This document shows, in pieces, positions 5,222 through 14,247 of a stretch of DNA of 14,247 nt. Below the pieces are notes generated by a model. The model saw only the letters and a program-made list of their open reading frames with translations, ran no database searches and had not been told where the DNA came from. Each line of letters starts with the position of its first letter. Positions within the stretch are counted from its first letter, which is position 1. The DNA is from Flavobacteriales bacterium. GTDB lineage: Bacteria > Bacteroidota > Bacteroidia > Flavobacteriales_E > Vicingaceae. The stretch is taken from positions 25,113-39,359 of the forward strand of contig NVVI01000010.1 of assembly GCA_002402165.1 (NCBI GenBank). Reading direction: 5' to 3'. Made by a program: the position numbers and the translations under genes.

Positions 5222-6137
5222 CTATGCTACATTTTTCATTTTATTAAATTCTGTTTCAACTTCTACTGGAGTTTTATAACCCAAAGAAGAGTGTAAACGT
5301 TTTCTATTATACCATATTTCAATATATTCAAAGACTGCTAATTTAGCTTGCTCTATGGTTTTGTATTCTTGATGATATATTAATTCTGATTTAAGTGTTT
5401 TAAAGAAAGATTCAGCTACTGCATTATCCCAACAATTACCCTTTCGGCTCATACTTTGAGTAATTAGATTATTGGTGTTAAGCTGGTTTCTAAACTCCTT
5501 GCTTGCATATTGGATGCCTCTCTGAATGAAAAATAAGGTTGTTGTCTATTTTTCTTTTTGATGTTGCCATTTTCCAAGCTGGAGTTATCGTTTCTTTTGT
5601 AAATAAGGTTTTACTCAACGACCAACCAATTACTTGTCTATCATATAAATCCATAACCGTTGTTAAATACAACCAATCTTCATCAGTTTTGATGTAGGTA
5701 ATATCTGATACCCAAACTTCATTTTAAGCCTTAGGCTTAAAATTTCTATCTAAATGATTATCAGAAATGGCATACATATGATTCGAGTTGGTGGTTACTT
5801 TATATTTCTTTCTAATCTTACTTTTTAAGTTGTTTAAACGCATTAGTTTCGCTACTCTTGGTTTGGATACTTTAATTCCTCTTCTTTTTAATTCTTCAGT
5901 TACTTTTGGTGAACCATAAGTTCTTCTACTTTCTTCAAAAACTTCTTTGATTTCTATTGTCAATTTTTGGTTTTCTATTTCTCGTTTAGATGGTCCTTCA
6001 CAATACCATCTATAATAACTACTTCTACTTACTTTTAATACGTTGCACATCTTCTCAATGGGATAATAATATTTATGTTTTTCTATAAATTGAAAGACTT
6101 CCCATCGCTCTTGGAAAAGATGTGAACGGCTTTTTTT
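5222..6137 (-). pseudogene. IS3-family transposase orfB, inactivated by a nonsense codon and a 2-nt deletion
   Basis: Encodes the catalytic half of the transposase, normally made as an OrfA-OrfB fusion. After the frameshift site the reading continues SRSHLFQERWEVFQFIEKH and reaches the HTH_21-like segment PIEKMCNVLKVSRSSYYRW. At 5724-5726 the codon after FKPKA is TAA where a sense codon (probably CAA) is expected, since NEVWVSDITYI follows in the same frame. Near 5518-5522, [13 protein letters not shown] has become HSE-RHPICK through loss of two bases, destroying the second catalytic Asp and shifting frame. The final part resumes as [12 protein letters not shown] and then [20 protein letters not shown] with the catalytic Glu, ending at the TAG at 5222-5224. 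The gene thus survives as three open segments (6050-5724, 5672-5490 and 5452-5222 are the readable pieces) and cannot give an active enzyme. Confidence 0.93.
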
Positions 6138-6391
6138 AATATCTCAAGTTCTAACTGAGCATTTTTAAGCTCTTTCTTTAATCGTTTAACCTCTGGTAGT
6201 TCTTCTTGTAACTTGGAGTTGGTTATTGATTTTAAATTAACTTGTTTTCTTGCTGTTGCTCGCCATTTATAAATTCGCTGTACTTGTACGCCTAATTCAT
6301 CAGCTAATTCTTTTATGTTCTCTCGCTGATAACTTAAGCTTACTGCCTTTTCTTTAAATGATTCACTGTATACTCTTTTTGCTTTCTTCAT
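6083..6391 (-). CDS. IS3-family transposase OrfA (HTH_Tnp_1-type)
   Basis: Small DNA-binding protein of 102 residues that recognises the IS ends. The N-terminal helix-turn-helix is visible (YSESFKEKAVSLSYQ, then IKELADELGVQVQRIYKWR), followed by a C-terminal leucine-zipper-like coiled coil (LPEVKRLKKELKNAQLELEI). It ends 18 residues after a run of seven A's used for -1 frameshifting. Read through without a shift, the protein stops in the sequence FSKSDGKSFNL. The frame is intact, so OrfA alone could still be made and could act as an inhibitor of related elements (family knowledge; not shown here). Confidence 0.92.
   Translation of the reverse strand: MKKAKRVYSESFKEKAVSLSYQRENIKELADELGVQVQRIYKWRATARKQVNLKSITNSKLQEELPEVKRLKKELKNAQLELEILKKAVHIFSKSDGKSFNL
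6131..6137 (-). promoter_or_regulatory. Programmed -1 frameshift slippery site A7 in the IS transposase
   Basis: On the minus strand the codons TTA AAA AAA GCC contain A-AAA-AAA, fitting the X-XXY-YYZ slippery heptamer. A -1 slip moves reading from OrfA (..ILKKAVH) into the orfB frame (..ILKKSRSHLFQE), joining the two halves as in active IS3 elements. Any downstream stimulatory structure was not worked out. Confidence 0.75.
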
Positions 6392-6521: not shown

Positions 6522-6541
6522 CATATATAGTTTTTTATATG
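6522..6541. promoter_or_regulatory. Palindrome in the ArsR-family promoter (candidate operator)
   Basis: CATATA at 6522-6527 and TATATG at 6536-6541 form an inverted repeat with an 8-bp spacer; extension outward gives 7 of 8 matching positions per arm. It touches the upstream edge of the -7 element, where repressor binding would block polymerase. ArsR-family dimers bind AT-rich palindromes of about this size, so autorepression through this site is a reasonable inference. Confidence 0.45.
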
Positions 6542-6549
6542 TATGTTTG
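6542..6549 (+). promoter_or_regulatory. -7 element of the efflux operon promoter
   Basis: TATGTTTG is a perfect match to the Bacteroidota TAnnTTTG element and lies 16 nt before the chosen ArsR start codon (6566). No exact TTG is seen at the -33 position. The element lies inside the longer open frame that begins at 6509, which argues against that upstream start. Confidence 0.6.
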
Positions 6550-6565
6550 CATAGAATTTAAGATA

Positions 6566-6856
6566 ATGGAAAAATTAAATACAGAAAAATTAGAAAAAGT
6601 AGCCTTCGTTTTAAAAACCATAGGCCACCCTGTTAGACTTGCTATCATTAACCACTTGGCAATAAATGAAAAAATGTCTGTTAATGAAATATGCGAAGCC
6701 TTAGGTCTTGAACAATCTTTAATCTCTCACCATTTAAACAATATGAAATTAAAAGGGGTATTGGATTGTGATAAGGAAGGGAATAGCCGATACTATTTTG
6801 TAGTGCTCGAAGAAGTGCTTACTGTAATTAATTGTATGGAAAAATGTAAATTATAA
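6566..6856 (+). CDS. ArsR-family winged-helix transcriptional repressor
   Basis: Cytoplasmic dimeric repressor of 96 residues, probably the regulator of the efflux operon that follows 21 bp downstream. The start is placed at ATG 6566 (MEKLNTEKLEKVAFVLKTIG). An in-frame ATG at 6509 would add 19 hydrophobic residues unlike the family and would lie upstream of the promoter element. The typical GHPVRLAIINHL helix, the recognition helix region (VNEICEALGLEQSLISHHLNNMK, split at residues 39-61) and the wing EGNSRYYFV are present. The classic ELCVCD arsenic motif is absent: only C43 lines up with its last Cys. Other cysteines are C68, C90 and C94, the last two as CMEKC in the C-terminal dimer helix, so a thiol or soft-metal sensor is possible. 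The Cys that sulfur sensors of the SqrR/BigR type have in the LILCHL helix is Asn here. The inducer is therefore unknown. Confidence 0.9.
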   Translation: MEKLNTEKLEKVAFVLKTIGHPVRLAIINHLAINEKMSVNEICEALGLEQSLISHHLNNMKLKGVLDCDKEGNSRYYFVVLEEVLTVINCMEKCKL

Positions 6857-6877
6857 ACTTTTTATTTAATTAATAAT

Positions 6878-8221
6878 ATGAGAATAACAACATATACACA
6901 TATAGCTATATTAATAACAGGATTACTGTTAATTAATATAAATGCACATGGACAAGAGAAAATTGAATTGTCATTAGACGAGGCAGTTGCAATAGCACTA
7001 AAAAGTAACTGGCAAATCAAAATGACTGAAACAAAATTAGGGATGGCAAAATCTGATTTGATGAAAGCTAACTCATCATTTTTGCCAAACGTAAATATTT
7101 CAGAGACGTTTATTAGTACAACAGACCCATTGAACGTATTTGGATTTAAACTAAAACAAGAGATTGTATCGAGTGCAGACTTTAATCCTATAGTATTAAA
7201 TAACCCTGAAGCTTTTGATAATTTTACTACTCGAATTCAGGTAGAACAGCCAATAATAAATCTTGATGCCTTAACTGGAAGAAGTGCCGCATCATCAGCT
7301 GTAAAAGCTTCCGAGCTGAATCTAGTTTGGACTAAAAACCTGATAACACTTAAAGCAAAGTACTTCTATTTTCACCTTCAATTAGCAAACAAGAAGAAAG
7401 AAGTCTTAGAAAGTTCTCAAAAAGCATTGAAAGAAAATTTTCGAGTTACTCAAAATTTATTCGACCAAGGACTAGTTCAGAAAGTGGATGTACTCGATAT
7501 GGAGTTAAGAATGACTGAACTTGAAAGTCAATTGTTAGCCATGGAAACACAAATCAATGACATCAATTTACAATTCACTCATTTCTTAGGTTATGAAATA
7601 ACAACTAAAATTGCGCTAACAGATACGATACAAAACTTTACTGAAATACCGTTAGAAAATTCTTCTCAGGGAATTTCAATAAATCGCTCAGACCTACAAG
7701 CATTATCTCTACAGTTAAAAGCAAGCGACAAAATGTTGAACTCTTCTAAAATGAGTTTTCTGCCACGATTAAATGCTTTTGGAAGTTACGAGTGGAACGA
7801 TAATAAAGTATTTGGTACATCGGCCAACAATTATTTTATAGGTGCGAAATTACAATGGGATCTTTTTAAAGGAGGGAAAAATATCGGAAAGCTTCAAAAA
7901 ATGAAATATCAAAGGAACTTAATGCAAATTAGGTATGATGAAAAATTATCTGACAGTCAACGAGAGTTAGTAAAGATTAAAAATCAACTGCTCCTTTCAA
8001 AAAAGCAATTGGAATTGGCAGAACTAACGGTAAGACAAGCCAAAGAAGTTTATAAGATAAAGTCAGATAGGTATGAAGAGGGTTTGGAAAAAACTGCAGA
8101 CATTCTTCAATCTGAGGCCATTTTATTATCAAAAAAACTAAACCTATTACAAAGAATTAATCAATACCAGCAATTGATTTTCAATTTAGAATTGTTGTTG
8201 GAAAAAGAAATCACAAAATAA
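6878..8221 (+). CDS. TolC-family outer-membrane efflux protein
   Basis: Outer-membrane channel of the tripartite pump, 447 residues, usual length. It has a signal peptide (MRITTYTHIAILITGLLLIN, cleaved near AHGQ), then two outer-membrane-efflux-protein repeats. Each repeat has long amphipathic helices (for example LDEAVAIALKSNWQIKMTE; QNLFDQGLVQKVDVLDMELR; YKIKSDRYEEGLEKTADILQ) and short barrel strands. The motif LFDQGLVQKVDVLDME is the characteristic TolC/CusC-type signature before the coiled-coil tunnel. No lipobox Cys is present, unlike many CusC-type factors. It is the second gene of the operon, 21 bp after the repressor and 7 bp before the fusion-protein gene, so almost certainly cotranscribed. 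Function as exit duct is secure by family and context; the substrate is unknown. Confidence 0.93.
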   Translation: MRITTYTHIAILITGLLLININAHGQEKIELSLDEAVAIALKSNWQIKMTETKLGMAKSDLMKANSSFLPNVNISETFISTTDPLNVFGFKLKQEIVSSADFNPIVLNNPEAFDNFTTRIQVEQPIINLDALTGRSAASSAVKASELNLVWTKNLITLKAKYFYFHLQLANKKKEVLESSQKALKENFRVTQNLFDQGLVQKVDVLDMELRMTELESQLLAMETQINDINLQFTHFLGYEITTKIALTDTIQNFTEIPLENSSQGISINRSDLQALSLQLKASDKMLNSSKMSFLPRLNAFGSYEWNDNKVFGTSANNYFIGAKLQWDLFKGGKNIGKLQKMKYQRNLMQIRYDEKLSDSQRELVKIKNQLLLSKKQLELAELTVRQAKEVYKIKSDRYEEGLEKTADILQSEAILLSKKLNLLQRINQYQQLIFNLELLLEKEITK

Positions 8222-8228
8222 TATAGAC

Positions 8229-9302
8229 ATGAAAAAAGGAAAACTAATAACACTATTAACGGCTACCACGATAATATTATCATCATGTGGTAGTGATGAG
8301 AAGAATACTCAACAACCTGAGGCAATTCCAGTAACCATAGAACACGCTGTCCCTACTCAACAGACTACCGAACATCAATTTTCTGGAAAAGTAACAGCAG
8401 ATGATAAAATGGTATTGAGCACAACAATAATAGGACAAATAGAACAAGTTCTGATTAAAGAAGGAGATGAAATTGTTAAGGGGCAACTTTTGGTTAAGGT
8501 AAAAAGCAATGACCTTTCTGCTAAACGAAGTACAGCCATATCAGCTGTGAAAACAGCAAAACTGAACATGAAAAATACAATCAAAAACTATCAGCGGATA
8601 AAAACGTTATTCGAAAAAGAGAGTGCCACTCAAAAAGAGTTGGAAGATATGGCTACAGCCAAAGAAGGAACTATCACAAAGTACAAAGAAGCCAATCAAA
8701 ATTTAACAGAAATCAATGAATACCTAAGTTATGCTAACCTGAAATCTCCAATCAATGGATTTGTATCTAAAAAAATGGTAAATGTTGGCGATATGGCAAA
8801 ACCTGGGCATCCAATTTTAGCATTAGAATCACTGGATGAATTAAAGATAGAAGTAGATGTTCCGGAGTTCGAAATAAGCAAATTCAAACTGAATGATGCT
8901 GTTTCGATAACCATAGATGCGGTAAATCTGAACAAAGTAAAAGGGACTGTAGAAAGGATAATACCATCTTCTTCTTTCTCTGGGCAGTATAAAGTAATAG
9001 TAGTTTTAAAAGAAAGCTACTATAATCTTAAACCTGGAATGTATACCAAAATTCATCTTTTAAAGGGTATGGAAAATAAACTCCTGGTTTCTAAAAACAT
9101 AATAATTAATAGGGGACAATTAACTGGTTTATATACTGTAAACCAGCAAGATGAAGCAGTATTACGTTGGGTGAGGTTGGGAAAGGAATATGGAGATAAG
9201 GTGGAAGTTCTTTCTGGTTTGAGATTAGGAGAACAACTAATTGTTTCTTCAGCATCTAAATTAACAGATGGAATTAAAATACAAATCACTAAAATAAATT
9301 AA
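8229..9302 (+). CDS. RND efflux membrane-fusion (periplasmic adaptor) lipoprotein
   Basis: Adaptor of 357 residues linking the RND pump to the TolC-like channel. The N-terminus MKKGKLITLLTATTIILSSC is a lipoprotein signal with Cys20 as lipid anchor. The barrel-sandwich (lipoyl-like) half motif IGQIEQVLIKEGDEIVKGQ lies at about 72-90, followed by a coiled-coil hairpin (about 100-165). The second sandwich half (SPINGFVSKKMVNVGDMAKP) and beta-barrel/membrane-proximal domains follow, with a typical C-terminus (VLSGLRLGEQLIVSS). There are no His/Met-rich ends as seen in some metal-binding adaptors such as CusB, which weakens a copper/silver reading. Its stop is 2 bp before the pump gene start, so translational coupling is likely. 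Confidence 0.93.
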   Translation: MKKGKLITLLTATTIILSSCGSDEKNTQQPEAIPVTIEHAVPTQQTTEHQFSGKVTADDKMVLSTTIIGQIEQVLIKEGDEIVKGQLLVKVKSNDLSAKRSTAISAVKTAKLNMKNTIKNYQRIKTLFEKESATQKELEDMATAKEGTITKYKEANQNLTEINEYLSYANLKSPINGFVSKKMVNVGDMAKPGHPILALESLDELKIEVDVPEFEISKFKLNDAVSITIDAVNLNKVKGTVERIIPSSSFSGQYKVIVVLKESYYNLKPGMYTKIHLLKGMENKLLVSKNIIINRGQLTGLYTVNQQDEAVLRWVRLGKEYGDKVEVLSGLRLGEQLIVSSASKLTDGIKIQITKIN

Positions 9303-9304
9303 TT

Positions 9305-12300
9305 ATGAGCGGAATTGCAGGAAATATTGCCAAACAATTTATTAACTCAAAGCTAACGCCTTTGTTAATGATTGTATTCATAGCAGTGGGGATTTACAGT
9401 GCTATGCTTACTCCTAAAGAAGAAGAGCCTCAAATTGAAGTTCCAATAGCCGATATATTTTTACAATATCCGGGAGCGAGTACAACTGAGGTAGAATCGA
9501 GAGTTGTAAAACCATTAGAGTCGATAATCTCAGATATTCAAGGAGTAGAATATGTTTATTCACAGTCATTGGAAGGACAAGCATTTTTGGTTGTTCGTTA
9601 TTATGTGGGAGACAATAGCGAGGAAAGCATCTTTAGGCTATACAATGAGATTCAAAAAAACATGGATAAAATGCCAGCAGGCGTTAGCATGCCATTAATA
9701 AAAACCAGATCAATAGATGACGTTCCAGCTTTAGGCTTAACCTTATGGAGTGAAAATTATGACGATTTTGAATTAAAAAGAATTGCAGAAGAATTAACTA
9801 CTGAAATCGAAAAAGTAACAGATGTTAGTTTTACTAAAACTTATGGAGGAAGAAGTCGAGAAGTTCAGGTTATCCTTAATCAAGAAAGTATGGCAGCATA
9901 TAACCTTGATGCTGATGTGATAACAAACAGTATTTATTCTTCAAACCAACAAGCTCAAGTTGGAGCCTTTAATAATAGTGATACTGAATTTTTGGTAGAA
10001 ACAGGTCAGTTTTTAAAAACTGCCGAAGACATAGAAAACTTGGTTGTTGGAGTTATTGACCAAGCTCCAATATATTTAAAACAGGTTGCCAAAGTAATTG
10101 ACGGTCCGGAAATCCCATCTGAGTACGTAACCTTTGGATTGAGTGAAAAGCAAGCAGCCATTAATAAGGGTTCAACGAAAGAATTTGCCGCAGTAACCAT
10201 ATCAGTTGCTAAAAGAAAAGGAGCCGATGCCATGAAAATTGCAGATAAGGTTCTCGATAAAGTAGAAAAACTAAAAACCGATTTAATTCCTTCTGATGTA
10301 CATGTAGAAGTAACGAGAAATTATGGAGAAACAGCGTCTCATAAAGTAAGTGAATTACTATTACATTTAGGAACAGCCATTCTTTCCGTTGCATTAATTG
10401 TAATGTTATCTATGGGTTGGAGAGGTGGATTAGTTGTTTTCTTATCTGTTCCAATCACTTTCTCATTGACCCTGTTTGCATACTATGCTTTTGGTTATAC
10501 CCTTAATAGAATTACACTTTTTGCATTAGTATTTGTTACAGGAATAGTAGTTGATGATTCAATTATAATTGCAGAAAATATGCATCGTCATTTTAAAATG
10601 AAAAAAATGCCGTTTATGCAGGCCGCAATTGCCTCTATTAACGAAGTCGGCAATCCAACAATTTTAGCAACATTTACTGTAATAGCAGCAGTATTACCAA
10701 TGGTTGCTGTATCTGGTTTAATGGGTCCCTATATGAGTCCAATGCCAATTGGTGCTTCTGTAGCAATGTTTGTTTCATTAATTGTAGCATTAACCATTAC
10801 TCCCTGGTTGGCTTATCGTTTATTGAAAAATGACAAAAGCAAAGAAAAAGAGTTTGTTTTAGAAGAAACCAAAATTTATAAACTGTATAATAAAGTATTA
10901 TCACCAATGATTGAAAGTCCTAAAAAAAGATGGACGTTTATTGGGGCTGTTAGTATTTTACTATTGGCATCTATGAGTTTGGTTTACTTTAAAATGGTAG
11001 CTGTAAAAATGCTGCCTTTTGACAATAAAAATGAATTTCAGATAGTAATTGATATGCCCGAAGGAACCACTCTAGAACGAACAGCTGTGGTAACAAAGGA
11101 AATTGCAGCTTATGTTAAGAAGCAAGAGGAAGTAGTCAATTATCAGACTTATGTAGGAACTGCTGCTCCAATTAATTTTAACGGTTTAGTTCGCCATTAC
11201 GACATGCGCAGGAACGCCAACATGGCCGATATTCAGGTTAATTTATTAGACAAAGGCGATAGAAGTATTCAAAGCCATGATATCGCTAAACGAATGCGTC
11301 CGGAAGTTCAGAAAATAGGTAAAAAATACAATGCCAATGTTAAGGTTGTTGAAGTTCCTCCTGGACCTCCGGTTATTGCAACAGTTGTAGCGGAAATTTA
11401 TGGGCCAGATGCAGCAGTACAGGAAGACATTGCTCTGCAAATTAAAGAGATGTTGAGCACGGTTGATGATGTAGTAGATATTGATTGGATGACAGAGGAT
11501 GATCAAATTGAATACAACTTTATTGTAGATAAAGAAAAAGCAATGTTGTTGGGTATTTCCTCCAAAAAAGTAGTAGATGTGCTAAACACTGTGTTGGGAG
11601 GTAAAACGGTTTCATTTTTACACAATGATAATGAGGTAAATGCAACTCCAATTACATTAAAACTGAAAGAAGCAGAACGATCTTCTTTAGAAGATTTAAA
11701 AAAGGTGAAACTACAATCACCTTCAGGAAGAATGGTGGCTCTTGGAGACATTGTTAAAATTGAAGAGAAGACAAAAGACAAAAGTATTTTCAGAAAAAAT
11801 CAAAAAAGGGTAGTTTATGTTACCGCAGATATTGCTGGCAATATGGAAAGTCCTGTTTATGCAATAATGGATGCTGGTAAGAAACTAAAGGACATTAAAC
11901 TTCCTGAGGGATACAGTTTAGAAGAATTGTACAGTAACCAACCTGTTATGGAGCAAAACTACAGTATAAAATGGGATGGAGAATGGCAAATTACTTTAGA
12001 GGTGTTTAGAGATTTAGGAAGTGCTTTTGCCGTGGTGTTGGTCATTATTTATATACTGATTGTTGGCTGGTTCCAAAGCTTTAAAGCTCCTATTGTAATG
12101 ATGGTTGCTATTCCGCTTTCTCTGGTTGGAGTGCTGGTTGGGCACTGGATGTTAGGTGCATTTTTCACAGCTACATCTATGATTGGTGTTATTGCGCTGG
12201 CCGGAATAATGGTTAGGAATTCCATACTCTTAATTGATTTTGTGGAGCTAAGATTAAAAGAAGGTGTTCCGCTAAAACGAGCAATAATTGAAGCAGGAGC

Positions 12301-12484
12301 AGTACGTACAACACCTATTTTATTAACTGCTGGAACAGTTGTTATTGGGGCATTTATTATTCTGTTTGATCCAATTTTTCAAGGATTAGCAATTGCCCTA
12401 ATGGGAGGTTCTATAACAGCAACTTTTTTAACTCTGATTCTGGTACCATTGGCGTACTATATGACGGAAAAACACAAACATTAA
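9305..12484 (+). CDS. RND-family efflux pump, inner-membrane subunit
   Basis: Proton-driven transporter of 1059 residues, full length with 12 expected membrane segments. TM1 is at about 18-36; TM2-6 at about 345-505; the second half, with TM7 at about 550 and TM8-12 at about 905-1050, mirrors the first. The proton-relay region in TM4 reads FVTGIVVDDSIIIAEN, with D417, D418 and E424 matching AcrB D407, D408 and E414 rather than the single-Asp CzcA/CusA pattern. In TM10, where AcrB has Lys940, this protein has Arg971 (GIMVRNSILLIDF). The periplasmic loop carries VVEVPPGPPVIATVVAEIYGP, a motif of an RND subgroup that I know only from general experience of Bacteroidota and Proteobacteria genomes. 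The DD pair argues against a classical heavy-metal (HME) pump, while the ArsR repressor favours a metal or sulfur-type stress. Substrate is open. The shared operon with TolC, adaptor and two small proteins is clear. Confidence 0.95.
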   Translation: MSGIAGNIAKQFINSKLTPLLMIVFIAVGIYSAMLTPKEEEPQIEVPIADIFLQYPGASTTEVESRVVKPLESIISDIQGVEYVYSQSLEGQAFLVVRYYVGDNSEESIFRLYNEIQKNMDKMPAGVSMPLIKTRSIDDVPALGLTLWSENYDDFELKRIAEELTTEIEKVTDVSFTKTYGGRSREVQVILNQESMAAYNLDADVITNSIYSSNQQAQVGAFNNSDTEFLVETGQFLKTAEDIENLVVGVIDQAPIYLKQVAKVIDGPEIPSEYVTFGLSEKQAAINKGSTKEFAAVTISVAKRKGADAMKIADKVLDKVEKLKTDLIPSDVHVEVTRNYGETASHKVSELLLHLGTAILSVALIVMLSMGWRGGLVVFLSVPITFSLTLFAYYAFGYTLNRITLFALVFVTGIVVDDSIIIAENMHRHFKMKKMPFMQAAIASINEVGNPTILATFTVIAAVLPMVAVSGLMGPYMSPMPIGASVAMFVSLIVALTITPWLAYRLLKNDKSKEKEFVLEETKIYKLYNKVLSPMIESPKKRWTFIGAVSILLLASMSLVYFKMVAVKMLPFDNKNEFQIVIDMPEGTTLERTAVVTKEIAAYVKKQEEVVNYQTYVGTAAPINFNGLVRHYDMRRNANMADIQVNLLDKGDRSIQSHDIAKRMRPEVQKIGKKYNANVKVVEVPPGPPVIATVVAEIYGPDAAVQEDIALQIKEMLSTVDDVVDIDWMTEDDQIEYNFIVDKEKAMLLGISSKKVVDVLNTVLGGKTVSFLHNDNEVNATPITLKLKEAERSSLEDLKKVKLQSPSGRMVALGDIVKIEEKTKDKSIFRKNQKRVVYVTADIAGNMESPVYAIMDAGKKLKDIKLPEGYSLEELYSNQPVMEQNYSIKWDGEWQITLEVFRDLGSAFAVVLVIIYILIVGWFQSFKAPIVMMVAIPLSLVGVLVGHWMLGAFFTATSMIGVIALAGIMVRNSILLIDFVELRLKEGVPLKRAIIEAGAVRTTPILLTAGTVVIGAFIILFDPIFQGLAIALMGGSITATFLTLILVPLAYYMTEKHKH

Positions 12485-12496
12485 TACTAAGAAATT

Positions 12497-12802
12497 ATGA
12501 AACTAATAATTGTAATAGGAATGCATGAGCATCAAGATCAACTCGATAAATTATTTAAAGAATCTGGAATTCCAATTTTTAGCAAAGTGGATGTGAAGGG
12601 ATTTAAATCTGGAAACAAGCAAGCGGATTTATCCAACTGGTTTGGAGGAGGTACTGATCCTAATTTATCCATTATGTTTTTCGCTTTTGTTCCAAAGCAG
12701 AATGCTGAAAGCATACTAGAAAAAGTAAAAGGATTCAATTCAGAAGAAAACAGAATTGCCCCATTACATGCTTTCCAATTACCAGTAGAAAAAATCGTAT
12801 AA
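12497..12802 (+). CDS. Small PII-like (GlnB-fold) protein of the RND operon
   Basis: Soluble protein of 101 residues, probably trimeric with a ferredoxin-like PII fold. It begins MKLIIVIGMHEHQDQLDKLF (beta1-alpha1), then SKVDVKGF at 29-36, matching the PII beta2 'VKGFG' entry to the T-loop. A short loop with SNWFGGG (46-52) follows, then beta3 SIMFFAFVP (58-66), alpha2 (67-79) and a final strand HAFQLPVEKIV (91-101), resembling PII 'KIFVFDVEQAV'. The T-loop is shorter than in GlnB and has no Tyr51 equivalent, so uridylylation is unlikely. PII-like proteins (PII-NG, DUF3240 types) are known beside RND metal-efflux genes (family knowledge). A role as a sensor or modulator of this pump is inferred. 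It starts 12 bp after the pump gene and 18 bp before the DUF2892 gene. The fold call is by eye. Confidence 0.75.
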   Translation: MKLIIVIGMHEHQDQLDKLFKESGIPIFSKVDVKGFKSGNKQADLSNWFGGGTDPNLSIMFFAFVPKQNAESILEKVKGFNSEENRIAPLHAFQLPVEKIV

Positions 12803-12820
12803 ACTTTAAATTATAATATT

Positions 12821-13006
12821 ATGAAAGAAAGAATGATAAAAGGAATAGCTGGCACATTTGTATTGACCGGCTTAGTTCTAGGATATTTTGTAAATGAGTA
12901 CTTCTATTTAATAATTGCCTTTGTAGGTTTAAATCTTGTTCAAACTTCATTTACTAAATGGTGTTTACTTGGTAATATTTTAGGAAGTTGTGGAGTTAAG
13001 GATTAG
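12821..13006 (+). CDS. YgaP-like two-helix inner-membrane protein (DUF2892)
   Basis: A 61-residue protein with two predicted membrane segments (about 9-23 and 28-42). Family features visible are the start MKERMIKGIAGTFVLTGLVL, the FVGLNLVQTSFTKWC stretch and a C-terminal LGSCGVK. Cys48 and Cys57 lie after the second helix. DUF2892 corresponds to the membrane part of the rhodanese YgaP and often occurs near sulfur-handling or ArsR-regulated genes (family knowledge), which suggests that this operon may deal with reactive sulfur or thiol stress; there is no rhodanese domain here. It is the last gene of the operon, 18 bp after the PII-like gene; a MITE-like repeat starts 11 bp after its stop. Confidence 0.85.
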   Translation: MKERMIKGIAGTFVLTGLVLGYFVNEYFYLIIAFVGLNLVQTSFTKWCLLGNILGSCGVKD

Positions 13007-13017
13007 ATAATAAATAA

Positions 13018-13169
13018 GGTTCTGTCGCATTAATCGAAAAATTGCAGATTATGGTGCATAATTGACAAAACCAAAAACCCCTAAATCGTTGATATTAGAC
13101 TCTTTAACTTTTTCGAAAGTAGAGAGTTTTCGTGAATAATGATCGAAAAACAACTAATACGACAGAACC
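13018..13169. mobile_element. MITE-like element, 152 bp, with 15-bp terminal inverted repeats
   Basis: GGTTCTGTCGCATTA at 13018-13032 is matched by the inverse TAATACGACAGAACC at 13155-13169 (14 of 15 positions; two flanking A/T bases pair as well). The body has no coding frame. The GGTTCTGT end resembles termini of IS6-like elements, but the parent could not be identified. No 8-bp or shorter target duplication is visible (left flank ATAAATAA, right flank TTTAAAGC). It is best read as an internally deleted, non-autonomous insertion element. Confidence 0.7.
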
Positions 13170-13432
13170 TTTAAAGCACTTTGTTTCACTTTTATAGAAA
13201 GTGAAACAAAATTTAATTAGATTAATGTATACACGCTTTCCCAAGTGTTTGCCAAAAATATTTAGCTCTTGATAGCACTGGATTTTATATGAGTACTCAT
13301 CTTTTTTCCCAACCAAATTCCTACGACATAACGACAAAAACTGGATAATAAATTTGTTATTGTAAGTATTTATTTCTTGTTATCCAAGTGCTGCAGGGCA
13401 AGCTGAGGCTTCTTAGTTTATCAAACCTTTAC
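13170..13432. other. Gene-free stretch between convergent genes
   Basis: These 263 bp separate the MITE-like element from the S74/type IX gene on the minus strand. They contain the 13-bp hairpin at 13180-13210. The rest is AT-rich, with no coding frame that resembles a protein, no RNA gene and no clear T-tailed terminator recognised for either side. Confidence 0.6.
13180..13210. repeat. Perfect 13-bp hairpin between convergent transcription units
   Basis: TTTGTTTCACTTT (13180-13192) and AAAGTGAAACAAA (13198-13210) pair perfectly around the 5-nt loop TATAG. It lies between the plus-strand efflux operon and the minus-strand S74 gene and could end transcription from either side. There is no strong T-run after it in either direction, so a protein-binding or element-derived palindrome is also possible. 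Confidence 0.65.
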
Positions 13433-14247
13433 TTATTTAGTTTTTACCATTTTTTTAGCGGAAATAACTTTACCATCAGCAACCAAAGAATAAGTATAGA
13501 CCCCTGAACTTAGGTCTTCTCCGTAGACCTTAATACTTCCTTCTCCTCTATCAATAAGTTCTACCGTTTTAATAATTCGACCATTTTGATTGTAAAAATG
13601 AAGTCGTGCTTTTATAACACTTTTTGGTAATACATACTTTATCATTGTACTCTCAGCAAATGGATTTGGAACATTTTGATCTAAAATAATAGTTTCAATA
13701 TTCTCCAAAGTAATATTTTGACTGTTCTCAATAGACGTAGTTTTATCGTCCGTATATAGAAGTTCTTCTAACTTTTCTATACGGGTAGAGAGTCCTTCAA
13801 TTTCTGCTTCCAATCCTTCTACATATTCTTGCTGTTCTTTGTGCCCTTGGATCAGGACAGGGATAAATCCCGTGTAATTTAATGCTTTATAATCAATTTT
13901 TTTAGCAACAATATTATTGTTGTCATCGTATTTTGGTGGTAATACAGTTTTCTGAACTAAGCCTGGGAGAATTGCTTCTACCTCTTGGGCAATCAAACCA
14001 TATTGAAGCTTATCAGAAAAATTCATGCGCTCAAATTCTTTTGTTTTAAATAAATATGTTTTCGGGCTTAGCTTATCAAGTATTTCCGTAGCATTCCGAA
14101 TATTAGCAACATCTTTCTTGAATTGTCTATCTGAAGTAATCATCACTCCTCCATTCACAAATCCATTTCCTGTAATATAAACATCACCTTGAAAATATCC
14201 TGCATAATTAGCAATTATACCACTCAATGGAGAGGTTCTTGCATGAA
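13433..14247 (-). CDS. Secreted fibre-like protein with S74 chaperone domain and type IX sorting domain (5' end outside window)
   Basis: This is the C-terminal 271 or so codons of a larger surface or secreted protein. The frame stays open past TTG 14225-14227 to the window edge (..HARTSPLSGIIANY), so that TTG is not the start. Numbering from that codon: a short beta-rich stalk end (1-30); the peptidase_S74 intramolecular chaperone domain (about 31-125) with the Ser32-Asp33 site in TSDRQFKKDV and the nearby lysines; then YGLIAQEVEAILPGLV and YKALNYTGFIPVLIQ, typical of the family. A coiled coil follows at about 128-158 (EYVEGLEAEIEGLSTRIEKL). Last is a type A type IX secretion domain (about 183-264) with NVPNPF, LHFYNQNGRI, GVYTYSL and the end KKMVKTK. 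S74 domains help trimeric fibres fold and often cut themselves off. The fusion to a type IX tail implies that export signal and stalk could be separated on cleavage. Confidence 0.9.
   Translation of the reverse strand, partial: HARTSPLSGIIANYAGYFQGDVYITGNGFVNGGVMITSDRQFKKDVANIRNATEILDKLSPKTYLFKTKEFERMNFSDKLQYGLIAQEVEAILPGLVQKTVLPPKYDDNNNIVAKKIDYKALNYTGFIPVLIQGHKEQQEYVEGLEAEIEGLSTRIEKLEELLYTDDKTTSIENSQNITLENIETIILDQNVPNPFAESTMIKYVLPKSVIKARLHFYNQNGRIIKTVELIDRGEGSIKVYGEDLSSGVYTYSLVADGKVISAKKMVKTK

Follow-up and report, generated by a model that had tools for sequence, protein, structure and literature searches.

Among transporters controlled by PII proteins, SbtA is regulated by SbtB and AmtB by GlnK, and both regulators bind nucleotides. 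PII-like genes are also already known beside RND efflux pumps, in the PG0541 family and as PII-NG with CzcABC (available part of PMC7726332). Like the operon described here, the PII-NG system has a gene for a PII domain protein within an RND operon; compared by description, it differs in that the pump is of the heavy-metal type and the PII-NG gene comes first in the operon (same part of PMC7726332).

RND pumps have been connected with sulfur as well. In the part of PMC12423496 available to us, RND pumps are among the likely targets of ArsR repressors that respond to sulfane sulfur, whose genes they adjoin; paired cysteines are given for these sensors, and no substrate is named for the pumps. 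Regulons of this SqrR/BigR/sHdrR group likewise unite ArsR, an RND pump and SQR, persulfide dioxygenase or rhodanese, but that part of the source mentions no PII protein, and in our case the ArsR lacks the paired cysteines and the sulfur enzymes lie on another contig. In Azospira suillum, Dsui_3440-3443 likewise comprise an RND pump and adaptor, together with SQR, and are expressed under sulfide (available part of PMC5358917); compared by description, this operon differs from ours in that the SQR gene lies inside it and that no PII is named in that part of the account.

Here we analyse a locus in a 14,247-nucleotide stretch of DNA from a Flavobacteriales bacterium, hereafter the window, which lies on contig 53 of a 3.06 Mb source genome (65 contigs, 91% complete). 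Among the literature matches listed for PII-like or DUF2892/DUF302 proteins with RND pumps, mostly open-access text, we found no paper on its six-gene combination, and the operon is likely a new combination of known parts. The pump family is found in 52 of 148 sampled Bacteroidota genomes, one copy in each, and two defined small partners accompany it, which opens its function to testing by gene removal.

Results

A compact six-gene operon

An earlier reading of the letters and open reading frames, the sequence-only reading, had proposed a compact operon of six plus-strand genes, and this is confirmed by the ORFs, the short gaps and the Pfam matches (Table 1). Genes for ArsR, a TolC-like channel, a lipoprotein adaptor, an RND pump, a PII-like protein and a DUF2892 protein follow one another at gaps of 21, 7, 2, 12 and 18 bp, and all six score above the Pfam gathering score. 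The adaptor has a lipoprotein-like N-terminus, with a lipobox (LSSCG) read off the sequence. The ArsR ORF as called mechanically starts earlier, at ATG 6509; we prefer ATG 6566 because an operator-like motif and a TAnnTTTG box, which fits the Bacteroidota -7 promoter element, sit between the two (6522-6549). The extended promoter pattern occurs once in the window and in none of 200 shuffles, and an Rfam search of the window gave no match at the gathering threshold.

Table 1. Features of the operon and its flanks, in window coordinates
Feature	Position	Strand	Details
Operator-like inverted repeat CATATA-TAGTTTTT-TATATG	6522-6541	+	putative ArsR site; binding predicted from sequence
Promoter-like TATGTTTG	6542-6549	+	matches presumed Bacteroidota -7 element TAnnTTTG
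ArsR/SmtB-type repressor	6566-6856	+	96 aa; Cys 43, 68, 90, 94; Pfam HTH_5 43 bits
TolC-like outer-membrane channel	6878-8221	+	447 aa; Pfam OEP 154.9 bits
Periplasmic adaptor	8229-9302	+	357 aa; HlyD_D23 82.6 bits; TIGR01730 189.1 bits, cut-off 94.9
RND permease	9305-12484	+	1059 aa; Pfam ACR_tran 537.1 bits
PII-like protein	12497-12802	+	101 aa; Pfam P-II 27.2 bits, barely over the cut-off of 25
DUF2892/YgaP-like membrane protein	12821-13006	+	61 aa; Pfam PF11127 (YgaP-like_TM) 37.5 bits, cut-off 25.3
Hairpin terminator-like site	13180-13210	+	3' of operon; 1 found, mean 0.0 in shuffles

Directly upstream of the operon lies a broken IS3-type transposase (5222-6391, minus strand), whose HTH_Tnp_1, HTH_21 and rve_2 parts fall into different ORFs, and between the DUF2892 gene and the terminator-like site lies a MITE-like element (13016-13171) with 17-nt inverted repeats, 94% complementary, set 122 nt apart. 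Further downstream, on the minus strand (13433-14227), a protein with a Peptidase_S74 chaperone domain is encoded; its Por_Secre_tail match is below cut-off.

The pump belongs to a distinct RND subgroup

As the sequence-only reading had noted, the permease carries an AcrB-like Asp pair (D417-D418, in VVDDSI beginning at residue 415), and this pattern, which marks TM4 of HAE-type pumps, is found in 130 of the 132 family pumps used for the tree. PPGPPVIATVV begins at residue 685; all 132 family pumps and, among the matches listed, 15/15 plasmid-borne relatives share the PPGPP core of this motif, versus 0/20 control pumps. The window pump misses the curated multidrug cut-off (best model NF033617, 460.3 vs 1250). 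Assignment to the heavy-metal (HME, CusA/CzcA) type was rejected, since the DFG...DGA motif is seen in 0/132 family pumps vs 10/20 controls and the window pump scores 258.8 vs a cut-off of 701.45 with TIGR00914.

The window permease contains no cysteine, and 116/131 family pumps are Cys-free vs 4/40 controls; when Cys content was paired within 27 genomes, the family pump was lower in 25 and equal in 2. Cys depletion was nevertheless set aside as an indicator of sulfur export, because 3/4 PG0541-type and 2/4 neighbouring HAE-like pumps are Cys-free too.

The 101-aa protein has a PII fold

Structure prediction of the single chain, the check that the sequence-only reading had asked for, gave a PII fold (ferredoxin-like with a T-loop, pLDDT 84.6), and the model matches PII structures; a PDB sequence search with the protein or its alignment as query returned no PII match. 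Within the predicted T-loop, W48-F49 is invariant in 70 sequences. The same reading's suggestion that the protein senses nucleotides or metals is unproven: in a pattern test, 0/113 PII-like sequences matched the glycine-rich B-loop pattern in their last 40 residues, and 64/113 have no Cys at all. In this respect the protein differs from SbtB and GlnK, which serve other transporter types and bind nucleotides. Membership in the PG0541 family was rejected (20.3 bits vs a cut-off of 45 for NF045581).

A second intact PII copy was seen in one genome (locus L242, G010:C1, 6888-7397), where it follows a pump remnant of just the C-terminal 60 aa; the cluster around it holds three SQR-like matches, two DUF2892 matches and one rhodanese-like match.

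Both small genes are conserved with the pump

We compared neighbourhoods in two locus sets, the best 80 of at least 583 pump relatives in named genomes and the pumps of 148 evenly sampled Bacteroidota genomes, with up to 5 candidates scored per genome. The two sets may share species, and L055 and L056 are one strain; loci with less than 1 kb of flank (L015, L036, L062, L068, L141, L142) were left out. As controls we used 40 of the 45 matches to other RND pumps encoded in these genomes (18 with the heavy-metal motif, 4 with an HAE-like motif and 18 others). The neighbourhood profiles covered sulfur, regulator, PII and DUF2892 genes; those for PII and DUF2892 start from the window sequences, and genes beyond contig ends may be hidden from all these counts.

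With set 1 being the best 80 of at least 583, a PII gene lies within 3 kb of the pump in 109/125 loci of both sets and a DUF2892 gene in 91/125, vs 0/40 controls for either. In the 76 loci of set 1 (best 80 of at least 583) with enough flank, the corresponding numbers were 67 and 72. At E <= 1e-200 each of the 52 pump-bearing genomes of the 148 has one copy, the lowest score being 1269 bits. A PII-family match occurs in 49/148 genomes and both occur together in 45, in all of which the two matches are no more than 348 bp apart; seven genomes have the pump without PII, and four have PII without the family pump. In these four (L238-L241), a PG0541-family protein ends an OEP-MFP-RND operon; the PG0541 operons thus resemble ours in having a PII-like last gene and differ in their RND subgroup and in the TetR-like gene (a label read from sequence) that precedes them.

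Among 126 labelled loci PII is absent from 16 and DUF2892 from 34, and on the pump tree, built with FastTree and carrying a long-branch warning, PII changes state ~11 times and DUF2892 ~10 times, so both are accessory. The sequence-only reading had named failure of the PII fold, or lack of conservation of the small genes with the pump, as outcomes that would count against it; the fold holds and the genes are conserved, so neither was found.

One locus in these sets, L086, is in a record titled as a Bifidobacterium breve MAG and bears this outer-membrane efflux operon; the record is probably mislabelled or a mixed bin.

Regulators differ among loci

The window ArsR scores 68.3 bits with NCBIfam HTH_metalloreg (NF033788, cut-off 55), which places it in the ArsR/SmtB metalloregulator superfamily. 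Membership in the SqrR/BigR group, judged by two cysteines in alpha-2 and alpha-5, was rejected: N29 occupies the alpha-2 Cys position, Cys 90 and 94 lie near the end, and the BigR model gave 38.9 bits against a cut-off of 155. Because the protein departs from the SqrR type in where its cysteines lie, its inducer might also be a metal.

ArsR did not prove to be a constant partner of the pump. Besides the window, a like ArsR heads the operon in L009, and an ArsR-rhodanese fusion lies upstream of the channel gene in L177 (12500-13195, minus strand) and L183 (12095-12754, minus strand), with domains checked for L177. In family f16, 29/30 loci have a CsoR-like gene, and at other loci no profiled regulator adjoins the channel gene. 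Copper-sensing CsoR has His at a position where the CsoR-like proteins (n=30) have Asn in 26 and Ser in 4, a substitution that, judged from sequence, recalls the persulfide sensor CstR. At plasmid loci outside Bacteroidota, 10/15 ArsR-like proteins among the matches listed have two cysteines so placed that one falls within the alpha-2 motif and one near the C-terminus, which corresponds to the sulfane-sulfur sensor pair given in the available part of PMC12423496.

Sulfur genes accompany the pump at some loci

A SQR-like, MBL-type or rhodanese gene lies within 5 kb of the pump in 57/125 family loci (set 1 being the best 80 of at least 583) vs 0/40 controls. SQR and persulfide dioxygenase had been named beforehand by the sequence-only reading; the SQR, SQR485, MBL, MBL-rhodanese, rhodanese, CsoR, SmtB and DUF2892b profiles took their seed sequences from the loci under study, so counts made with them are partly circular. 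In 18 of the best 80 of at least 583 relatives, a SQR-like gene on the same strand ends 2.3-4.2 kb upstream of the pump, and for one of the 18 the best relative is a solved SQR (117 bits); L024 has a type III SQR (651 bits, NCBIfam cut-off 525). An MBL-rhodanese protein is encoded 31 bp downstream of DUF2892 in L086, and f16 has an MBL gene in 26/30 loci. One MBL protein matched 4ysb best and human ETHE1 third, with glyoxalase II close behind.

Some observations speak against a sulfur reading, among them N29 in place of the alpha-2 Cys in the window ArsR, the loci that lack PII or DUF2892, the pump columns, which do not follow PII, and the searches for an SQR in the source genome (below). Sulfur genes lie within 5 kb at only those 57 loci and within 3 kb at only 37/125, and in NCBIfam the MBL genes reach an equal or higher score with glyoxalase II (best model, below cut-off). 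In Azospira, sulfide was oxidized at the same rate after deletion of the SQR-RND operon, and metal-sulfide stress is put forward by the authors as one reason why the RND genes are induced (available part of PMC5358917).

Plasmid loci made up 15 of the 25 matches listed, of at least 5000, with L155 repeating L147. The 14 outside Bacteroidota (matches listed) have pumps 39.8-48.6% identical to that of the window, and within 6 kb of them we found DUF2892 at 13, ArsR at 12, a SQR-like gene at 11, rhodanese at 6 and PII at none; one SQR from these relatives matches a solved SQR with 468 bits. At the Bacteroidota plasmid locus, L143, none of these five genes was found within 6 kb. The enrichment over controls and the SQR-like genes at 11/14 outside-phylum loci (matches listed) support the sulfur or thiol link drawn by the sequence-only reading, which thus stood as to fold, small-gene conservation and sulfur, and fell short as to a constant ArsR and nucleotide or metal sensing by PII.

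A rare operator-like motif marks three sites in the source genome

The 19-bp operator-like motif CATATATAGNNNNNTATAT occurs three times in the source genome, against an expected 0.03-0.08 (Markov model, 69 kb of source-genome sequence) and 0 for the backward control. The sites precede the pump operon, an apparent second operon elsewhere in the genome (ArsR-TauE-MBL/rhodanese-rhodanese-DUF6132-like-rhodanese) and a DUF302 gene. CATATATAG-N5-TATAT lies upstream of both ArsR genes, and the pattern has exactly three genomic copies. Since the motif was defined from two of its three sites, those before the two ArsR operons, the DUF302 site is independent evidence; a 21-bp stretch common to the window site and the DUF302 site would be expected 0.00001-0.00003 times. 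Allowing one mismatch added two sites, each within an ORF (521 or 581 aa).

The ArsR of the second operon is 43% identical to the window ArsR, and the MBL-rhodanese protein is 57% identical to its L086 counterpart; the DUF302 family is also annotated, and was confirmed, at a Methylocella pump locus. Judged from these sites, the two operons and the DUF302 gene are probably co-regulated. One profile search of the source genome found no SQR, and a second gave one weak match far below cut-off with a model that also fires in all 14 controls.

Discussion

From the gene content, the PII fold, the linkage, and the rarity and placing of the motif, we infer, with a probability of about 0.5, that the pump operon is the efflux arm of a regulon for defence against reactive sulfur (sulfide or persulfide). 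ArsR would sit on the inverted repeat that adjoins the -7 box on its upstream side and keep the operon off, with all three promoters closed in this state; modification of its cysteines by sulfane sulfur or, possibly, their binding of a thiophilic metal would release it. The pump operon, the ArsR-TauE-MBL/rhodanese operon (persulfide-dioxygenase-like) and the DUF302 gene would then be expressed together, with TauE, MBL/rhodanese and the rhodaneses clearing sulfite and persulfide and the RND pump removing the remainder. The exported species may be a sulfur-loaded compound such as a polysulfide, a low-molecular persulfide or a thiol adduct.

The pump could instead be a general exporter of drugs or toxicants, with PII and DUF2892 acting elsewhere, in sulfur or energy metabolism, and sharing only its promoter. 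We consider this unlikely. Such a loose attachment agrees with the separate losses of the two genes on the tree, with the PII copy of L242 that sits beside only a pump remnant among SQR-like and DUF2892 genes, and with f16, where DUF2892 is nearby in only 2/30 loci and MBL genes are frequent. It also agrees with the pumps themselves: in the family alignment we found no columns that track PII presence, and at the 426 columns conserved in PII-bearing loci, an average of 98.7% of the PII-less loci show an unchanged residue. Against it, 0/96 sampled pump-less genomes carry a window-type PII, and the four weak matches are the PG0541 proteins beside another RND pump.

That the operon exports a metal, metalloid or metal-sulfide, with ArsR sensing As, Cd, Zn or Cu and the PII-like protein acting like PII-NG, is doubtful: the generic metalloregulator score and four cysteines of the window ArsR would suit it, as would the PII-NG of Geobacter, which is encoded with CzcABC and increases under cobalt (available part of PMC7726332), but the family lacks the heavy-metal motif, the pump misses the CusA/CzcA cut-off, and sulfur genes adjoin none of the 40 controls, including the 18 with that motif.

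Within the reactive-sulfur reading, roles can be sketched for the two small proteins. The PII-like protein, probably a cytoplasmic trimer, would sit on the cytoplasmic face of the pump and gate it through the Trp-Phe of its T-loop, by analogy with SbtB-SbtA and GlnK-AmtB; we suggest a gate on account of the fold, the T-loop Trp-Phe and the place behind RND pumps. In its full form, this proposal has a PII trimer that lacks the canonical nucleotide loop gating the RND trimer of a reactive-sulfur exporter via a conserved Trp-Phe/Trp-Trp T-loop, while DUF2892 feeds in sulfane sulfur; we regard it as speculative and rather improbable. If true, it would put an RND pump under PII control and give persulfide homeostasis an export branch, and gating by PII would in itself add RND exporters to the PII-controlled transporters.

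The window DUF2892 protein carries a KWC motif, the Cys motif is found in 107/108 sequences, and even the single exception has a Cys at this place. This single conserved cysteine at the membrane may hold or pass on sulfane sulfur, and its conservation would fit a sulfur relay. In the available part of PMC5358917, a DUF2892 transcript is ~10-fold up during sulfide oxidation. In two loci, L173 and L175, genes of the C_GCAxxG_C_C redox type lie between PII and DUF2892.
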